Source: Pelagibacteraceae bacterium AG-313-A04
Lineage (GTDB): Bacteria; Pseudomonadota; Alphaproteobacteria; Pelagibacterales; Pelagibacteraceae
Direction: 5' to 3'
Assembly (NCBI GenBank): GCA_003284275.1
Contig: QBVU01000001.1
Coordinates: 186,001-250,000 of the forward strand
Length of the DNA stretch: 64,000 nucleotides
Shown here: in pieces, positions 1,239 to 60,981 of the stretch
How the letters are laid out: the number at the start of each line of letters is the position of its first letter
Numbering within the stretch: the stretch's first letter is position 1
Made by a program: the position numbers and the translations under genes
Notes under the pieces: generated by a model
What the model was told of the DNA's origin: nothing
What the model saw: only the letters and a program-made list of their open reading frames with translations
Database searches by the model: none

Positions 1239-2387
1239 TCACCTATATGCAATTTTTGAACTATTTAGCTCTTTTATGTTTTTACAACCCAATAAAATCA
1301 TATCTCTTCTTATTTCTTCTCTCATTCTTTTTAAAATTTGCTCCACACCAGCTTGGCCGCCAGCACCTAAGGCAAATAAAAAACCTTTTCCAAAACTACA
1401 CGCTGTTGCACCTAATGACAACGCTTTTAAAACATGGGTGCCTCTTCTTATTCCTCCATCTAAAATTATTTCTAATTTATCTCCAACTGCTTCTTTTATT
1501 GCTGGCAGTTGATCGAAGGGTGATCGTGAACCATCAAGTTGTCTTCCACCGTGATTGGATAATAAAATTGCAGAAGCCCCAATATCAATTGCTTTTTTTG
1601 CATCTTCGACCGACATAACACCTTTTAATGCAAATGGTCCTCCCCATTTTTTCACAACATACTCAGCATCTTTCCAGCTCATCGCTGGATCATATTGTTC
1701 GTTGATATAATCCATTACTCCTTTTGCGATACTAGATCCTTTTTTCGTCCAATGAGAAACATTTGCTAACTCAAATTTTTTATTAGTCAAATAATTGAAT
1801 GCCCATTTAGGATGCATTGCAAAACTCATAATGCTTTTTAAAGTTAATTTTGGTGGCGTGGTAAAACCCCATTTGTGATCTCTTTCTCTATTTCCTGCTA
1901 CAACTGTATCAACAGTTAAGCACAAAGATTTAAATCCTGCTGTTTTACATCTATCTATTAAATTATCTGTTAAACCTTGATCTTTATGAATATAAAGTTG
2001 GAACATCTTAGGTCCGCTTGCAACATTGGCTATTTCCTCAATAGAAGAAGTTGCCATAGTCGACATACTGTAAAATGTTCCAAATTTTTCTGCAGCTCTT
2101 GCGGATGCTTTGTCTCCATCGTGATGATATAATCTTTGCATTGCAGTTGGTGCCAAAAATAAAGGCATATCAATTTTTTGACCAAAAACAGTTGTTGAAA
2201 GATCAGGCTCTCCAACGCTTGCCAGTATATTAGGCACCAAATCACATTTTAAAAATGACTCTGTATTTCTTTTTAAAGTAGTCTCATCATCAGAGCCTCC
2301 ATCGATGTAATGAAAAATTGGAGCCGGTAAATTTTTTTTTGCTAATCTTCTAAAATCCTCAAAATTATAACAATCTTCAAGACTCAT
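1239..2387 (-). CDS. lldD: FMN-dependent alpha-hydroxy acid dehydrogenase (L-lactate dehydrogenase-like)
   Basis: A 382-aa TIM-barrel flavoprotein of the LldD / glycolate oxidase family, oxidising a 2-hydroxy acid with FMN. The N-terminal FHYIDGGSDDE segment, the LSNHGGRQLDGS active-site stretch and the DGGIRRGTHVLKALSLGA phosphate-binding region are all present. Bacterial LldD passes electrons to the respiratory chain. Finding it in line with the ccm genes is compatible with a respiratory role, but that is inference. It starts 5 bp after the PagL-like gene, so co-transcription is likely. Lactate versus another 2-hydroxy acid is not decided by the sequence. Confidence 0.88.
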   Translation of the reverse strand: MSLEDCYNFEDFRRLAKKNLPAPIFHYIDGGSDDETTLKRNTESFLKCDLVPNILASVGEPDLSTTVFGQKIDMPLFLAPTAMQRLYHHDGDKASARAAEKFGTFYSMSTMATSSIEEIANVASGPKMFQLYIHKDQGLTDNLIDRCKTAGFKSLCLTVDTVVAGNRERDHKWGFTTPPKLTLKSIMSFAMHPKWAFNYLTNKKFELANVSHWTKKGSSIAKGVMDYINEQYDPAMSWKDAEYVVKKWGGPFALKGVMSVEDAKKAIDIGASAILLSNHGGRQLDGSRSPFDQLPAIKEAVGDKLEIILDGGIRRGTHVLKALSLGATACSFGKGFLFALGAGGQAGVEQILKRMREEIRRDMILLGCKNIKELNSSKIAYR

Positions 2388-2392
2388 TATTA

Positions 2393-2896
2393 TTAAAAGT
2401 TTTTTGAAAAAGTTATTTGTTGATTATCTGTTCCTGGATTAGTATCACCCCAGTCATTATTTGAAATATGACTGTAACTGTAACTTAATTTAGAATTTTC
2501 GAAAATATCCAGACCTATTTTAATTTCACTTTTAAATTCTAGTACACTGCCTAAATCTTTTCCTTCACCTTTCTCATAATAACCAGGAGTAAAACTTGGT
2601 AAAATTTTTAAGGGACCAATTCCATATTGCCCTTCTATACCTGTGTAAAGATAAACTGAACTATTTCCTGTCATAAAAGCTCCAGTAACAGGTTTGAACT
2701 TTCCAAGAAGAGTATTTCTAAATAAGTTTGGATTTTTGTGCTCTATTCCAAATAGAGTGGTTTGATCATCTCCCTCTTTATCTATTACATCAAAAGTACC
2801 AGTGTAAAATGAAATATCTGCATCTCCTTGTTCTGCTTGTGCATGAACAAAAATGATGAAAGTGGATAATAAACTTATTAGCAGTTTGAGTTTCAT
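2393..2896 (-). CDS. PagL-like lipid A deacylase / acyloxyacyl hydrolase family outer-membrane protein
   Basis: A 167-aa protein with a signal peptide (hydrophobic residues 4-18, likely cleavage after AQA near residue 21) and alternating polar/apolar strands typical of a small beta-barrel. The C-terminal SHISNNDWGDTNPG region resembles lipid A 3-O-deacylase PagL: His143 and Ser145 form the HxS of the catalytic site and the chain ends in Phe. At the place of the usual catalytic Glu (14 residues after the His) there is Asp157. It sits between ccmH and lldD on the same strand. The deacylase assignment rests on the short C-terminal motif only; a structural barrel without activity remains possible. 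Confidence 0.6.
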   Translation of the reverse strand: MKLKLLISLLSTFIIFVHAQAEQGDADISFYTGTFDVIDKEGDDQTTLFGIEHKNPNLFRNTLLGKFKPVTGAFMTGNSSVYLYTGIEGQYGIGPLKILPSFTPGYYEKGEGKDLGSVLEFKSEIKIGLDIFENSKLSYSYSHISNNDWGDTNPGTDNQQITFSKNF

Positions 2897-2945
2897 ATAA
2901 AAAAATACAACTAAATGTTTAATATGTACAGTTTCCTTTAAAGCT

Positions 2946-3305
2946 TTATTGCCTCTTTTTTAGAAAAGAAAAAATGAAAAAACCACCAAAAATTAAGACA
3001 ATATAAGGCAAAATCCACAATAGGGAATTTTGGATATTAAATTGAGGTTTAAACACGATCCAGTCTCCATATTTATCTGACATAAATGAATAAATTTCTT
3101 CCTCTGTTTTTCCCTCATCAATTAAATCTTCTACGACTAACTTAATTGTTTGAGCAAAATCAGAGTTTGAGTCTGAAATTGATTGTCCTTGGCAAACTAA
3201 ACAACGTAAATTTTTATGAATTTGATTTGGATCAACCGTCTTTTCTTTTGCAAAAGAAAATTCTGAAAAAAAAATAATTATAAATATAAATAAATTTAAT
3301 TTCAT
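2946..3305 (-). CDS. ccmH: Cytochrome c maturation protein CcmH
   Basis: A 119-aa membrane-anchored thiol protein of system I cytochrome c biogenesis. It has a signal peptide (residues 1-19), the LRCLVCQGQ redox motif with Cys35 and Cys38, and one C-terminal membrane span (about 90-112). CcmH keeps apocytochrome haem-binding cysteines reduced and presents them to CcmF. It follows ccmG by 2 bp. The CcmI domain fused to CcmH in enterobacteria is absent, as is usual in alphaproteobacteria, and no ccmI is in the window. Confidence 0.95.
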   Translation of the reverse strand: MKLNLFIFIIIFFSEFSFAKEKTVDPNQIHKNLRCLVCQGQSISDSNSDFAQTIKLVVEDLIDEGKTEEEIYSFMSDKYGDWIVFKPQFNIQNSLLWILPYIVLIFGGFFIFSFLKKRQ

Positions 3306-6113: not shown

Positions 6114-6347
6114 TTAAATAGTTTTACTAAATGAGGATAAAACTTGCGAAGCTATTTTTGAATTCTCTATAACTATTTTTTTTCTCTCAAAAGAAAGCTC
6201 GTTAATCTCTTTCGCAAATTCTCTTTCGTACTTTTTAAGTGTTTTGTGTGTTCTGTAATAAAGTAATCCACATGCAACAAAAGTAATTACAAAGGATCCC
6301 CATACGAATAAACCATAACCATTCATAGATAAAAAATTTTGTATCAT
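6114..6347 (-). CDS. ccmD: Haem exporter/adaptor protein CcmD
   Basis: A 77-aa protein with one N-terminal membrane span (about residues 10-28) followed by a charged, probably helical tail. CcmD is a small adaptor that helps release holo-CcmE from CcmABC. The identification rests on topology and on its position between ccmC (4-nt overlap) and ccmE (8-bp gap), since CcmD sequences diverge widely. The tail is longer than in many CcmD proteins, which are often 50-70 aa. Confidence 0.85.
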   Translation of the reverse strand: MIQNFLSMNGYGLFVWGSFVITFVACGLLYYRTHKTLKKYEREFAKEINELSFERKKIVIENSKIASQVLSSFSKTI

Positions 6348-7051
6348 ATTCTTTTAATGTTTTTTTTCTTTATTTTAATGATTTCTGTCTTGTATTTCAT
6401 TAGAAAAATTAGCGCACAATACAAGATAAAAACAAAAAACATTAACAATAATGGCATTAACATAGAAGAATGGATTGAACTTTCACCGATTAACTTGATA
6501 CTGGCAGGTTGATGGAGTGTGTTCCACCAATCAACAGAGTATTTAATTATTGGAATATTTATTAAACCTATTATTGCAATGATACTAGAAATTTTGTTTG
6601 CTTTATTTTCATTTGCAATCAATTTATGAGTGGAGATAAACCCAACATAAAAAAGAGCAAGAATAAACATAGATGTTATTCTTGCATCCCAAACCCACCA
6701 TGTTCCCCATGTTGGTTGGCCCCAAATTGATCCTGTGACCAATGCTAAGCATGTAAACATTAGACCTATTGGAGCGATGCTTTTAGTTATTAATCTAATA
6801 TTTTTAATTTTAAAAATAAAATGTGCAATGGATAATATAGAAATTGAAGAAAAAGAAGCCAATCCAATCCACGCGGAGGGAACGTGCACATACATTATCC
6901 TCACACTATCACCTTGTAAATAATCAGGCGGTGAAAAAATTAAAGCAAAAGAAAGTGCAACTAAGAGTAAAATAAAAAAGACTGAATTAATAAATCCAAT
7001 TAATTTTTCAATCCAATAAAATATATTGCTCAGGTTCAAAATTTTAAACAT
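6344..7051 (-). CDS. ccmC: Haem exporter protein CcmC
   Basis: A 235-aa six-span inner-membrane protein that loads haem onto CcmE. The WWD-type periplasmic motif is seen as WGQPTWGTWWVWDARITS, and conserved His residues occur in the MYVHVPSAW and LHQPAS segments. It is the first gene of the visible ccmCDEFGH operon; ccmA and ccmB are not adjacent. Its leader contains a strong hairpin (7099-7155). The start codon follows a TATTATAG stretch, so a promoter close to the gene is possible. Confidence 0.95.
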   Translation of the reverse strand: MFKILNLSNIFYWIEKLIGFINSVFFILLLVALSFALIFSPPDYLQGDSVRIMYVHVPSAWIGLASFSSISILSIAHFIFKIKNIRLITKSIAPIGLMFTCLALVTGSIWGQPTWGTWWVWDARITSMFILALFYVGFISTHKLIANENKANKISSIIAIIGLINIPIIKYSVDWWNTLHQPASIKLIGESSIHSSMLMPLLLMFFVFILYCALIFLMKYKTEIIKIKKKNIKRI

Positions 7052-7098: not shown

Positions 7099-7155
7099 AG
7101 CCCAACTGAGAATTAGGAGGGAGTATAACTAAAGAAGTTCATCCTCAATTGGGCT
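7099..7155 (-). ncRNA. Candidate structured RNA: 12-bp stem with C-rich loop between hspQ and ccmC
   Basis: The arms at 7099-7110 and 7144-7155 pair over 12 positions. Read on the minus strand the one imperfect pair is G-U; on the plus strand it is C-A, so the minus strand is favoured. The 33-nt loop can form a small inner stem (AACU/AGUU) and leaves CUCCCUCC exposed, which is complementary to Shine-Dalgarno sequences. A weak promoter (TTCAAA, 18 nt, TATACA at about 7172-7167) would start transcription near the stem base. There is no T-run, so it is not an intrinsic terminator. It could be an sRNA or a leader element of the ccm operon. The rest of 7052-7228 shows nothing I recognise. Confidence 0.4.
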
Positions 7156-7228
7156 AAAACATTAAAATTGTATAATTCCTCTGTGTCTGAGGTTTGAATA
7201 AAAATTGTTAAATTTTAGGCAGTAATTG

Positions 7229-7552
7229 TTAATTTGATACTTTGTGGTAACTTGAGCCTTTTTTTCCTGTAAAGATCTCTTCTATAAGCGGGTGCTTCAC
7301 AGGTTCTTTTGATAAGTCTATTAAAAGATTTTGTTCAGAAACATAGGCTTCGTAGGTGACGTCATTACTCTCGGCAAGTAAATGATAAAACGGTTGATCT
7401 TTTCTCGGTCTAACTTCCTTTGGGATAGACTGATACCATTCCTCTGAATTATTAAATTCAAAATCAACATCATAAATCACACCCCTAAAATCGAAGTGTC
7501 TATGTTTAACAACTTCACCAATGGAAAATTTAGCTATATTACTTGTGCCCAT
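7229..7552 (-). CDS. hspQ: Heat shock protein HspQ (YccV-like hemimethylated-DNA-binding fold)
   Basis: A 107-aa cytoplasmic protein of the YccV/HspQ family. Recognisable features are KFSIGEVVKHRHFDFRGVIYDVD at the start, WYQSIP, the RPRKDQPFYHLLAE core and YVSEQNLL near the end. In enterobacteria HspQ is a heat-induced specificity factor for the Lon protease and binds hemimethylated DNA in vitro; here its role is inferred from family only. It is a lone gene upstream of the structured-RNA candidate and the ccm operon. Confidence 0.9.
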   Translation of the reverse strand: MGTSNIAKFSIGEVVKHRHFDFRGVIYDVDFEFNNSEEWYQSIPKEVRPRKDQPFYHLLAESNDVTYEAYVSEQNLLIDLSKEPVKHPLIEEIFTGKKGSSYHKVSN

Positions 7553-17914: not shown

Positions 17915-20074
17915 GTGGCTAAAAGAAAAAAGAAGAAAAAAAAATCAAAAAAGACAAAAAAGACTAGAAGAAAGAAGTCTAGAAAAATTATTAGATCAAA
18001 AAAAAAGAAGTCTAGAAAAATTAAAAAAGCAAAAAAATCAAAATCAAAAAGAAGAAAAAAATCAAAATCTAGACCAAGAAAATCAAAACCAAGAAAATTA
18101 AATTTTAAAGCGCCTAAGTTACTTGAAGATGGAGATGGGAAATCTTTAATTAAAGTTTCAGATAGTTGGGCAAATCATGCCTATGTTAATGAGTCAAAAT
18201 ATAAAAAGAAATACAAACTATCAATTAAAGAAAATGATAAGTTTTGGGCGAAAGAGGGAAAAAGAATTTCTTGGATTAAAAAATATTCAAAAATTAAAGA
18301 TATTAAATACAGCAAAGATGAAGTCAAAATTAAGTGGTTCTATGATGGTACATTGAATGCTTCAGCTAATTGTATTGATAGACACTTAAAAAAAAATCCT
18401 AGTAAGACTGCAATTATATGGGTAGGTGATGACCCAGCTGACTCTAAAAAAATTTCTTACAAAGAATTACATCAAAATGTATGTAAGGCGGCCAACGGAC
18501 TTAAAAGTTTAGGTGTTCAAAAAGGAGACCGAGTAACAATTTACTTAACTATGATACCCGAGCTAGCTTATATAATGCTTGCTTGTGCTAGAATAGGAGC
18601 TGTGCACTCTATAATTTTTGGCGGCTTCTCGCCTGACTCAATAGCTACAAGAATCACTGATTGTGAGTCGGAGTACTTAATTACAGCAGATGAAGGTGTA
18701 AGGGGTGGAAAAATAATTCCTCTAAAAAAAATAGCAGACGAAGCCTTAGATCAATGTCCAAACGTAAAAAAATGCGTTGTTGTTGAACGAACAGGTAATC
18801 AGGTTAATTGGAATGAGGAGAGGGACATTTCTTATAAAAAACTAATCTCTTCAGTTCCTACAAAGTGTGATCCTGAAGAAATGAGTGCTGAAGATCCATT
18901 GTTTATTCTTTATACATCTGGATCAACGGGTAAGCCGAAAGGAGTTTTACATACTACAGGTGGATACATGGTTTACGCCTCCATGACACATCAGTACATT
19001 TTTGATTACAAGCCAAATGATATTTACTGGTGCACTGCAGATATTGGTTGGGTAACTGGTCACAGTTATATTATTTATGGTCCATTAGCTAACGGCGCGA
19101 CTACAATTATGTTTGAAGGTGTTCCAAATTATCCCGATAATTCAAGATGGTGGCAAATCGTAGATAAATATAAAGTTAATACGTTCTATACAGCTCCCAC
19201 TGCAATTAGAGCATTGATGAGAGAAGGAGACAGTCCTGTTAAAAAAACCAGCAGAAAATCTTTAAAATTATTAGGAACAGTGGGTGAACCAATTAATCCT
19301 GAAGCTTGGATGTGGTATTACAAAACAGTTGGAGATGCTAGATGTCCAATTGTTGATACTTGGTGGCAAACTGAAACAGGAGGTATACTAATCGCTCCAC
19401 AACCTGGTGCTATTGATTTAAAACCAGGTTCAGCAACAAAACCTTTCTACGGCATTAAGCCTGTTTTAGTTGATAAGGATGGGAAGATTATTAAAGGTGA
19501 AGGTCAAGGAAGATTATGTATGGCTAATTCTTGGCCAGGACAAATGAGAACTGTTTATGGTGATCACCAAAGATTCATTGACACTTATTTTTCTCAATTT
19601 GATGGAAAATATTTTACTGGCGATGGCTGTAAAAGAGATAAAGACGGCTACTATTGGATAACAGGTAGAGTAGACGATGTTATTATTGTTTCAGGTCATA
19701 ATCTAGGAACAGCGGAAATCGAAAGTGCATTTGTTGCTCACCCTAAAGTCGCTGAGGCTGCAGTCGTTGGTTTTCCACATAGTATTAAGGGAAACGGTTT
19801 ATATTGTTACGTTACCTTGAATGCAGGTGAAAATCCTACAGGAGATTTAGAAAGAGATTTAAAACAGTGGGTTAGAAAACAAATTGGACCCATATGCTAT
19901 CCTGATGTAATTCAGTTTGCTCCTGGTTTGCCTAAAACCAGATCGGGAAAAATTATGAGAAGAATTTTAAGAAAAATTGCAGCTAATGAACCTAACAACC
20001 TTGGTGATACCACAACTTTAGCAGACCCAAGTGTTGTGGCTTCATTAGTTGAAAATAGATTAAATAGAGATTAA
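17915..20074 (+). CDS. acs: Acetyl-CoA synthetase with a long Lys/Arg-rich N-terminal tail
   Basis: A 719-aa acyl-adenylate-forming enzyme making acetyl-CoA from acetate, ATP and CoA. The core (from about residue 75) has [11 protein letters not shown], the P-loop [11 protein letters not shown], the [10 protein letters not shown] motif, [14 protein letters not shown] and the C-terminal acetylation-site region [10 protein letters not shown]. The first 66 or so residues are almost entirely Lys, Arg and Ser. The GTG start at 17915 has an AGGAG 5 nt upstream, and no in-frame ATG occurs between the tail and the core, so the tail is probably translated as part of the enzyme. Overall length exceeds the usual 650 aa by about that amount. 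The 3' end shares TTAA with the convergent gene. Confidence 0.95.
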
Positions 20075-20854: not shown

Positions 20855-21112
20855 ATGTCAAATAAAGACGCATATTGGGAAAAGACTAAGAACCACATGT
20901 TTGTAACATTGGGTCTTTGGGCTTTTTTCTCGTTAGTTATCTTCATGTTTGGTTCTGAACTGAACACGATGTCTTTTCTTGGTTATCCTTTAGCATATTA
21001 CATGACAGCGCAAGGTTCACTTCTTGCCTTTGTGATAATTTTGTTTTGGACAGCAAATAAACAAGAAAAAATCGACGAAGAACATGGATTCTCAGAAAGA
21101 GGGGATGACTAA
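20855..21112 (+). CDS. DUF4212 protein, small subunit of a sodium/solute symporter
   Basis: An 85-aa protein with two membrane helices (about residues 15-36 and 46-66) and the DUF4212 signature YWEKTKNHM...LWAFFS near the start. DUF4212 proteins occur immediately before VC_2705-type sodium:solute symporters and are taken to be an accessory subunit. An unusually strong ribosome binding site (AGGGGGAAAT) precedes the ATG. It overlaps the symporter start by one base. The C-rich third codon positions suggest high expression. Confidence 0.92.
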   Translation: MSNKDAYWEKTKNHMFVTLGLWAFFSLVIFMFGSELNTMSFLGYPLAYYMTAQGSLLAFVIILFWTANKQEKIDEEHGFSERGDD

Positions 21113-22965
21113 TGTTTAAAGGTGATTTTATAAAAAACCTTCCTAAAATATATGGGACCTACACTGGTGGTTTCTTAGTATTCATCATTTTGATGGCTAT
21201 TGCGGAACAAGCAGGTGTGTCAGCTAAAAACATCGGAGTGATGTTCGTAGCTTTCACGGTTTTGATTTATGCCTTAATCGGTTATTTATCACGAACCATT
21301 CAAGTAGATGCCTACTATGTTGCAGGAAGACAAGTGCCTACCGTATTTAACGGGATGGCAACAGCAGCTGACTGGATGTCAGGTGCTTCATTCGTAGCCT
21401 TAGCAGGTGGAGTTTACTATGGTGGTTATACTTATATGGCCTTCTTGGTAGGTTGGACAGGTGGATATGTACTTGTTGCAACTTTAATGGCTCCGTACCT
21501 AAGAAAATTTGGATGTTACACAGTTCCTGATTTTATCGGAACACGATACGGTGGTAATCTCGTAAGAGCTTGCGCTGTATTCGTGCTTTTCATAGCGTCA
21601 TTTACTTACGTAACTGCACAAATTAACGCTACGGGTACAATTGCTTCTAGAGCTCTTGGAATTCCGTTCGAAGCAGGCGTATGGGTAGGACTAATTAGTA
21701 TTCTTATCTGTTCAATGCTTGGAGGAATGAGAGCTGTAACTTGGACTCAGGTTGCTCAGTACATTGTATTAATCATTGCTTACTTACTACCAGTATTCTG
21801 GATAAGTAATAAAGTAGGTGGAGGTGTTTTCCCTCACTTGATGTTAGGTGATGAAGTTGCAAGACTTGGTGAACTTGAACAACAATTTGGACTAGTTAAA
21901 AACAGTGCCGCAGATATGAAAGCAGCTGGTGTACCGGGAGGATTGAAATATATCTCTGGAACTCACTCTGGAGTACCTGAAGGTGGAATGGCTGTCTGGA
22001 AATACTTATCGTTAGCGATTTGTATGATGGTGGGAACTGCATCGTTACCTCATATCTTAATGAGATACTTTACAACTCCTTCTGTTAGAGCAGCAAGAAA
22101 ATCAGTAGCTTGGTCGCTATTCTTTATTTTCTTACTTTACTCTTCAGCGCCTATGTTAGCGACATTGTCTAAGTTGGCATTAATGGATCCAAATCTACCA
22201 ACTGGAATTATTGGAAAATCTATTTCTGAAGTTCAGTCGATAGAGTGGGTACAAAGATGGTCTGAAGTTAAACAAGTATTTATCGCAGACTTTAATGGTG
22301 ACGGTATACTTCAGTTGAACGAATGGTTCATGAGAGGTGACGTTGTAGTATTAGCTACTCCAGAAGTAGCGGGACTACCGTTCGTAATCTCGGGACTAGT
22401 GTTTGCTGGAGGTATGGCTGCTGCCATGTCAACTGCTGACGGTCTTGTATTAGCGATATCAAATGCTTTATCTCATGATATTTACTACAAAATCATAGAT
22501 CCAAAAGCTGATACAGCTAAAAGACTTTTAGTTGCTCGTGTACTTCTAGTAATAATCGGAGCTGCTGGTGCTTACATAGCCTCTTTCAGGCTAACAAGTA
22601 TCTTAGGTTCGGTTGCTTGGGCATTCGACTTTGCAATGTCAGGCTTATTCTTCCCACTTGTACTTGGTGTATGGTGGAAGAGAGCTACTAGAGCTGGTGC
22701 AATCGCCGGAATAGTAACGGGAATTTTATCAGGATTATTCTACCTATTATGGGTATATCCTAAATTCTCAGTGCCAATTTTCGGTGGTGTAAACGAACCA
22801 TTCTTAGGTATCGACCACTTAAGATTTGGTTTAATCGGTGCACCTATCTGTTTAGTGGTAATGGTTGTAGTTAGTTTAATGACTAAAGAACCATCTCCAT
22901 CAATACAGAAAATGGTAGATGACACTAGAATACCAACGGGTAAACCAATCCTTGGTAAACAGTAG
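21112..22965 (+). CDS. VC_2705-family sodium/solute symporter (ActP-like)
   Basis: A 617-aa secondary transporter of the SSS family with about 13 membrane helices. The family motif region is VAGRQVPTVFNGMATAADWMSGASF (residues about 65-90), and GMAAAMSTADGLVLAISN lies near 440. The VC_2705 subgroup always pairs with DUF4212, as here. Related ActP carries acetate; the closeness of acs is suggestive, but the substrate is not proven. A loop at residues 393-404 reads DFNGDGILQLNE, a canonical EF-hand calcium-binding pattern. Codons are biased to NNC/NNT forms less common in neighbouring genes, consistent with strong expression. A rho-independent terminator follows. Confidence 0.93.
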   Translation: MFKGDFIKNLPKIYGTYTGGFLVFIILMAIAEQAGVSAKNIGVMFVAFTVLIYALIGYLSRTIQVDAYYVAGRQVPTVFNGMATAADWMSGASFVALAGGVYYGGYTYMAFLVGWTGGYVLVATLMAPYLRKFGCYTVPDFIGTRYGGNLVRACAVFVLFIASFTYVTAQINATGTIASRALGIPFEAGVWVGLISILICSMLGGMRAVTWTQVAQYIVLIIAYLLPVFWISNKVGGGVFPHLMLGDEVARLGELEQQFGLVKNSAADMKAAGVPGGLKYISGTHSGVPEGGMAVWKYLSLAICMMVGTASLPHILMRYFTTPSVRAARKSVAWSLFFIFLLYSSAPMLATLSKLALMDPNLPTGIIGKSISEVQSIEWVQRWSEVKQVFIADFNGDGILQLNEWFMRGDVVVLATPEVAGLPFVISGLVFAGGMAAAMSTADGLVLAISNALSHDIYYKIIDPKADTAKRLLVARVLLVIIGAAGAYIASFRLTSILGSVAWAFDFAMSGLFFPLVLGVWWKRATRAGAIAGIVTGILSGLFYLLWVYPKFSVPIFGGVNEPFLGIDHLRFGLIGAPICLVVMVVVSLMTKEPSPSIQKMVDDTRIPTGKPILGKQ

Positions 22966-59906: not shown

Positions 59907-60381
59907 CTTTCGTTCTTGGTTTTATTTGTTGAATAATTTTTAACAAATCTTTTTTTCTTATAGCGACACACCCCTCTGTCTTTTTAAAATTATTTTTTGC
60001 GACATGAATAAAAATAGCGCTACCTTTATTTTTTTTGACAGGATCCATGTTGTAACTGAGTACTAATATAATATCATATATATTCTCTTTTTTATAAAGT
60101 CTTTCATGACTGTATTTAAATGGTAATTTAATAAGCCTATTGTATTTTTTAGATTTAGGGTCATTACACCAACCCATATTTTTTGTAATCACTGCATTTT
60201 TTATGTGTGTTTGTATTTTAACCCTGTCTTTTCTATATAAAATGCATTTTATTTTAAATTGTCCTTTTGGTGTAATTAAATCACCTTCTTTCTTTTTAAA
60301 GCCAATTCCTCTTTTACCTACAGCGCATTTTGCTTTATAATTTTTATAAGTAAGATAATTTTTATTTATTATAATATGCAT
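59884..60381 (-). CDS. L,D-transpeptidase (YkuD) family protein
   Basis: A 165-aa protein with the YkuD catalytic region: KGSAIFIHVAK containing the conserved His, then TEGCVAIRKKDL with the nucleophilic Cys. The N-terminal KRGIGFKKKEGDLITPKGQF is also typical. YkuD enzymes cross-link peptidoglycan or attach proteins to it, but no signal peptide is visible, so its site is unclear. The start is taken at ATG 60381; a TTG one codon upstream is possible. Its ATG overlaps the start of the divergent regulator in the palindrome ATGCAT. Confidence 0.85.
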   Translation of the reverse strand: MHIIINKNYLTYKNYKAKCAVGKRGIGFKKKEGDLITPKGQFKIKCILYRKDRVKIQTHIKNAVITKNMGWCNDPKSKKYNRLIKLPFKYSHERLYKKENIYDIILVLSYNMDPVKKNKGSAIFIHVAKNNFKKTEGCVAIRKKDLLKIIQQIKPRTKVKISLQR

Positions 60382-60981
60382 CAATTAAATGTATTAATTT
60401 TAGGCCCAAATTCTTTTACATCTACCCTAAATGAACTTAAACCTTTTTTAAAGTTTAATTCTTTAACTGAGATAAAAAACTTAAAGCTCGATGTTATATT
60501 GTTTCACGTAGATGCGCTTTTAGACAAAAAAAACAATGAAATTTTAAATGATAATAATTGCTTAAAAGTTTGCACTTCTAATACAAAAAAATTATCTAGT
60601 GATTATGATGCGTATTTATATTTACCAGCCTCACTTAAAGAGATTAATGATACAGTTGAAAACATTGCTGCAAAAAAAATTTTTTCTAACAATTCATCAA
60701 TTCAAATAAAAAAATATATTTTAAATAAAAATGAAAAGAAATTATATAAGAATAATGACCAAATTATTCTTACCGAAAAAGAAATTCAATTACTTGAATT
60801 ATTTCTTGGCAATAAAAAACCCATCTCTAAAGATAAAATATTATCATCAGTCTGGAATTATTCAACAGATGCAGACACACATACTGTTGAAACACATATC
60901 TATAGATTAAGAAAAAAAATTAATGAAAAATTCTCAGATGAAAACTTTATAATGAATACTAAGGACGGTTATTCATTATGA
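60376..60981 (+). CDS. Winged-helix (OmpR/PhoB-type) regulator with degenerate receiver domain
   Basis: A 201-aa protein. Residues about 125-200 are an OmpR-type DNA-binding domain: LTEKEIQLLELFLGNKKPISKDKIL, then THTVETHIYRLRKKI and the C-terminal wing TKDGYSL. Residues 1-105 look like a receiver domain that has lost its acidic pocket (LILGPNSF), and the conserved Lys-Pro is replaced by YLPASL, so phosphorylation is unlikely. Regulators are few in such genomes; targets are unknown. The start overlaps the ykuD start. The stop overlaps the ArfA-like start (ATGA). Confidence 0.8.
   Translation: MHQLNVLILGPNSFTSTLNELKPFLKFNSLTEIKNLKLDVILFHVDALLDKKNNEILNDNNCLKVCTSNTKKLSSDYDAYLYLPASLKEINDTVENIAAKKIFSNNSSIQIKKYILNKNEKKLYKNNDQIILTEKEIQLLELFLGNKKPISKDKILSSVWNYSTDADTHTVETHIYRLRKKINEKFSDENFIMNTKDGYSL

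Follow-up and report, generated by a model that had tools for sequence, protein, structure and literature searches.

The hairpin at positions 7099-7155 (minus strand) of the 64,000-nucleotide stretch analysed here (the window) belongs, judged by covariation among its relatives, to a genuine family of structured RNAs in SAR11, and this family looks new as far as the literature was searched. The reading preferred here, with a probability of roughly 0.55, is that the hairpin is part of a small RNA gene that stands by itself in the SAR11 family, is about 60-70 nt long and has a predicted activator-type promoter of its own. The window comes from a SAR11-type genome; its relatives bear the names Pelagibacter, Pelagibacteraceae or Pelagibacterales. 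The hairpin is flanked by two minus-strand genes that we take, by their protein families, to be hspQ-like (7229-7552, upstream of the RNA) and ccmC, the first gene of the ccm cluster (6344-7051, starting 47 nt after the hairpin).

In the minus-strand RNA, a 15-bp stem (AGCCCAAUUGAGGAU / AUUCUCAGUUGGGCU; 5′ arm at 7141-7155, 3′ arm at 7099-7113), supported by folding, covariation and a model match, closes a 27-nt loop (7114-7140) whose core, CUCCCUCC at 7116-7123, is recognized by its conservation among homologues. A 76-nt minus-strand segment folds with a minimum free energy of -23.1 kcal/mol (z -5.2) that none of 200 dinucleotide shuffles equals, and the plus-strand fold is weaker (-15.6, z -1.8; equalled by 10 of 200 shuffles). 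A sequence-only reading of this DNA had described a minus-strand hairpin with a 12-bp stem, a C-rich loop and no following T-run in a 177-bp spacer. The sequence at 7099-7155 agrees with that description: the C-rich loop core is present and conserved in homologues, the distance from the hspQ stop to the ccmC start is 177 bp (27.7% G+C), no T-run follows the stem in the window, and the 12 bp stand as the outer part of a stem that has three further inner pairs, including a second G-U, and is therefore 15 bp long. A run of at least five T within 12 nt of the stem occurs in only 12 of 101 distinct homologues; as judged from these sequences a conserved terminator after the stem is absent. The covariance model of the hairpin scores 54.8 bits in its own genome, where the runner-up has 17.2 and the window sequence is itself among the 53 that built the model, and as a rule there is one strong match per genome.

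For the comparison among relatives, 53 sequences less than 93% alike were chosen from 103 and aligned with plain MAFFT. Pairing is kept in 94.7% of the 847 cells of this alignment, for which the sequences had been pre-cut by the folding script with a resulting bias towards a stem at those ends, and structures slid along it as controls are 32.7-50.8% paired. Two-sided changes are seen in 14 of the 16 pairs, so that the compensatory stem changes on which the sequence-only reading had staked the hairpin are indeed found. The cells changed on both sides number 147 versus 49.8 in shuffles, and the covariation score of 0.601 versus 0.341 is reached by none of 500 shuffles; the bare number of pairs with two-sided change is equalled by 26 of the 500. 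The alignment contains 106 G-U cells and 12 A-C cells, nine of the latter in the innermost pair, which identifies the minus strand as the RNA strand, as had been proposed.

The loop keeps CCCUC, mostly as CUCCCUC, which is found in 94 of 103 distinct homologues, with CUCCCCUC in seven and a longer C-run in two. The core is not absolute, since two further genomes deviate from it, with UCCCUC in G200 and ACCCUC in G318. Loop length ranges from 21 to 36 nt and is shorter in some genera. As the lengths are not multiples of three (40, 31 and 30 of 101 in the three classes modulo three) and an ATG occurs in the arm plus loop of only 22 of 103 homologues, a conserved peptide is unlikely.

Of the 169 genomes in the genus, 104 match the spacer DNA at E<=1e-6 and all 169 do so somewhere at E<=10; among the 65 that miss the stricter threshold, several, for example G003 and G142, carry the hairpin according to the covariance model. 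All 80 named hspQ loci among the matches listed have the word CTCCC(C)TC on the right strand. These 80 loci together with 30 genome loci gave 110 spacers, 104 of them distinct; the script found the hairpin in 103, with the stem set by hand in two where it had taken the wrong one (L026, L104), and the last, L039, has the hairpin further down. Applied to 34 more loci, the script proposed a plausible hairpin for 31; it missed that of G318 and miscalled those of G200 and G177, which were identified separately. Most spacers, when measured to ccmC, have a length of 159-184 bp, even where CcmC is near 55% identical.

The covariance search across SAR11 that the sequence-only reading had named as a check gives matches at E<=0.1 in 183 of the 247 genomes of the family and 12 of its 14 genera, a tally that includes some matches other than the RNA, such as a weak one to another hairpin elsewhere in G189. 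The model also misses divergent copies: in genera g5, g7, g9 and g12, where it finds nothing or a weak match (as in G187), all seven complete spacers inspected have a hairpin whose stem sequence is largely different and whose CUCCCU loop and location are the same. The model match in g12 is not the RNA, although g12 does have the RNA, and the G185 contig breaks off at the spacer. Among the 64 family genomes without a match, hspQ and ccmC were sought in eight (G137, G098, G124, G251, G280, G288, G307 and G327) and neither gene was found in any, so that these eight are uninformative on loss of the RNA. At the level of the order 137 of 197 genomes match, and at the level of the class 5 of 240, comprising two SAR11 genomes, one contig of G585 and two weak matches. 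The G585 contig (L158/L172) has a SAR11-like hspQ-RNA-ccmC arrangement in a genome of another family, with an hspQ 85% identical to that of the window, and is probably misassigned or misbinned. In the sister family f2, 13 genomes match at E 0.008-0.1; six of these were inspected (L161-L166), none lies by hspQ or ccmC, and they represent about three unrelated sequences that were taken as chance. One f2 genome, G343, has hspQ and ccmC on separate contigs, and CTCCCT was not found at its ccmC locus. As far as this model sees, then, the RNA appears confined to the SAR11 family. One exact pattern had no match in viral contigs. In contig C12 of G094 the spacer is present twice, at 3225 and 22835 in opposite orientations, possibly as an assembly artefact.

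Upstream of the hairpin is an operator-like block (7180-7220, minus), recognized by alignment and matrix score, in which four nearly invariant C columns lie 11 bp apart, followed by a predicted -10 element, TACAAT (7167-7172, minus), whose TA keeps a constant distance in 98% of 51 sequences; transcription would start at about 7160, at the hairpin base. These 51 non-redundant sequences were aligned on a word-search anchor demanding CAAA and a GACA-like word, with L041 and L044, which have no anchor, excluded. The block is ungapped, with C at -31 (100% of 50), AACA at -22 to -19 (96-100%), TT at -15 (98-100%), CAAA at -9 to -6 (96-100%), C at +2 (100%), A at +5 (96%) and TA at +15/+16 (98%), the constancy of the CAAA and GACA columns being partly by construction, as the anchor requires those words. 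The hairpin base falls at +25 to +34 in 47 of 51. For a plain sigma-70 promoter the GACA word and the TA are too close to form a -35/-10 pair, and an activator would sit over the -35 region. The four most constant C columns are in exact 11-bp steps; with L026, L077 and L104 (stem or anchor miscalled) kept out of the scoring matrix and periodicity sets, the periodicity test gives p values of 0.016 for lag 11 and 0.021 for lag 22, and of 0.39 for the best lag overall, which leaves the 11-bp periodicity only suggestive. The block scores 41.3 in the window and the next place 2.7, with a matrix built from homologues of the same site. Searched with the operator pattern, 7 of 12 family genomes have their own site at 0-1 mismatches, each without another site that good; the own site has two mismatches in G200 and three in G168, G204 and G207, and was not found by the pattern in G176. 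Other sites comprise one with two mismatches (G126) and the rest with three, near the control level. By these searches the operator block seems nearly private to the RNA.

The 11-bp half-sites and their spacing to the -10 element, which may resemble that of E. coli phoA, suggested PhoB as the regulator, but this candidate is not favoured. Nine pstS upstream regions score from -3.2 to -23.9, eight of them in the random range under its 95% line (-8.3) and the ninth (L226, -3.2) above that line and below the 99% line (1.8) of random window stretches, and neither PhoB nor pstS was found in the window's own genome, which is 87% complete. No copy of the operator was found at 30 response-regulator loci. 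ChvI was considered as another candidate regulator, as its S. meliloti motif, N-GCC-N8-GCC, likewise has an 11-bp period (PMC9731502). Two observations were made in passing. The regions upstream of pstS in L230, L231 and L233 contain TGTAA(C/T) repeats with a spacing of about 11 bp, which may be a SAR11 pho box. The window also has, at 60376-60981 (plus), an open reading frame of 201 amino acids that by inspection resembles a winged-helix response regulator with a degenerate-looking receiver part, and similar short ones occur in other SAR11 genomes.

A scan of 300-400-kb parts of three genomes provides a lead to a second, weak operator before a small open reading frame. The second-best operator scores of G184 (10.0) and G171 (12.4) fall at the same orthologous place, before a 38-codon frame between lipoyl enzyme and thiolase genes, and G233 (13.5) and G236 (-2.6, where the likeness was judged by eye) share this arrangement. 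In all four genomes the distance from the start of the site to the ATG is 60 nt, and the conserved frame encodes 37-38 amino acids. The support for this putative site comes from its recurrence and not from its score, because scores near 10 also occur elsewhere (10.0 inside an open reading frame in G172; 10.2 at another place in G233). The TA of the -10 element is not kept at the same distance there, and the lipoyl-enzyme-gene stretches of L327, L332, L338, L339 and L342 contain no match to the small frame at E<1.

The position of the hairpin could also be explained by a leader of the ccm operon, whose promoter would drive ccmC and whose 5′ UTR hairpin would set the stability or translation of ccmC in cis, the first of two roles that the sequence-only reading had offered. 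Among the matches listed, ccmC follows the hairpin in 78 of 80 named loci, and it does so in L039 too. Between the hairpin end and the beginning of ccmC there are 30-53 nt (median 47, quartiles 45-48, n=90), and this near-constant spacing keeps the leader reading alive. Microarrays of ‘Ca. P. ubique’ showed ccmC (SAR11_0287) mRNA to be 10.35-fold up in sulfur-limited and 2.18-fold up in control stationary phase; the 23 genes listed from those arrays include no second ccm gene, and the authors read the rise of ccmC as compensating for scarce heme c (PMC5069961). This array signal may arise from the promoter of the hairpin. Against the leader stand two of three loci in which a neighbour is displaced or missing and the operator and hairpin are nevertheless retained. 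In L077 and L111, which may represent one event, ccmC is not in the locus, the downstream gene resembles one for an outer-membrane protein, and the operator (29.8 and 32.5) and hairpin remain by hspQ. In the third, L039, a methyltransferase-like gene (2378-3082, by inspection) is inserted after hspQ, and the operator (39.4) and hairpin remain by ccmC. The hairpin is thus not always placed before ccmC, and control in cis is weakened by the persistence of the unit in its absence and sustained by the constant distance; the leader takes second place among the readings and is rather unlikely. L039 bears equally on the idea of a hairpin or terminator in the hspQ 3′ UTR, which would fit a hairpin located 3′ of hspQ on the same strand. 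With another gene intervening there, a promoter-like block belonging to the hairpin itself, and the T-run missing in most homologues, that idea is very improbable. As the block and hairpin are inherited together where one neighbour is displaced or missing, a self-standing small RNA is favoured.

How such an RNA would act is a separate matter, and a trans-acting small RNA, the second role offered by the sequence-only reading, is favoured as the most likely answer on the independence of the unit from its neighbours, with target pairing that does not rise beyond controls. A role of the loop as a general blocker of ribosome-binding sites, suggested by its anti-Shine-Dalgarno character, is not supported: against the start regions of 75 window open reading frames its pairing is equalled by 29 of 60 shuffled loops, and the mean is weaker for start regions than for internal coding stretches (-6.8 versus -7.8 kcal/mol). 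When 178 of 279 ortholog groups (in at least three genomes) were ranked by duplex energy, the first place went to the start region of a gene that by inspection is of the solute:sodium symporter type (21112-22965, plus), with the DUF4212 and acs genes of the same cluster third and fourth. The best real target group, at -16.2, is matched by 4 of 40 shuffled loops, and with the core kept (-18.0) 3 of 40 shuffles are as good, so that these controls are not beaten. Any C-rich loop will pair with start regions rich in G. A comparison of cognate with non-cognate loops in 17 genomes, in which the row of G200 was left in with a wrong script-picked hairpin, gives p 0.03 for the symporter, with which 9 of the 17 cognate loops pair better, and 0.09 for DUF4212. 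The symporter is therefore a lead only, not beyond the shuffled-loop controls. In the same cluster, the acetyl-CoA synthetase-like frame at 17915-20074 (plus; by inspection) has a very lysine/arginine-rich N-terminus of about 65 residues, and its G184 orthologue starts similarly. A conserved loop core with no evident targets would also suit an RNA whose pyrimidine-rich loop is the binding site of a protein, such as a cold-shock protein or a ribosomal or ribonuclease factor. A single copy of the motif is unusual for a sponge, and such a function is distinctly unlikely.

Under the favoured trans-acting reading, an OmpR/PhoB-type winged-helix response regulator would bind the half-sites spaced 11 bp apart and activate the promoter, and the transcript would start at the hairpin base. 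The stem would protect the RNA and display the pyrimidine-rich loop, which could repress the translation of one or a few mRNAs by pairing with their G-rich start regions, and part of the transcription may continue into ccmC.

To our knowledge no trans-acting small RNA has been defined for SAR11, and none was seen in the literature searched; nor was a description of the present RNA seen there, in a search that covered few subscription papers. Comparison of the window with Rfam 15 returned tRNA as the only match, and at E<=10 the best hit in the spacer has 22.2 bits against a cut-off of 94.4, so that the check for 6S, suhB or other known families found none for the hairpin. The closest likeness is with the SmelA075 and SmelA099 families of Rhizobiales, which have anti-Shine-Dalgarno loops (CCUCCUCCC) on more variable stems (PMC3927594). 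These RNAs are described with three or four hairpins each, whereas the SAR11 RNA has one hairpin and as a rule one copy per genome: a single motif-bearing hairpin lies in the spacer, the genome yields one strong match, and the loop reads CUCCCUC, or the same with extra C, and not CCUCCUCCC, in 103 of 103 homologues. ChvR of Caulobacter, an 84-nt small RNA regulated by the ChvI-ChvG two-component system and located before recF (PMC6237742), is also an alphaproteobacterial small RNA but has more than one stem-loop, in contrast to the single hairpin at the hspQ-ccmC locus. Candidate structured RNAs reported for ‘Ca. Pelagibacter ubique’ come from the same organism group and likewise from long conserved spacers; Table 1 of that report, which covers spacers longer than 100 bp with a G+C content of at least about 26%, names no hspQ or ccmC spacer, and none of the four further motifs in that report lies in such a spacer (PMC2704228).

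A wider but quite unlikely possibility is a SAR11 stress circuit made of one response regulator, one unusual operator and little more than the small RNA and the protein of 37-38 residues, in which the RNA would tune organic-acid uptake through the acs-DUF4212-symporter cluster of the window, some 14 kb from the hairpin. With a hairpin in every complete hspQ spacer inspected and a tightly conserved promoter-like block, the RNA is a strong candidate for a core regulator in these abundant marine bacteria. It offers a defined candidate gene of about 60 nt for work in cultures, and may be relevant to the lone induction of ccmC when sulfur is limiting.
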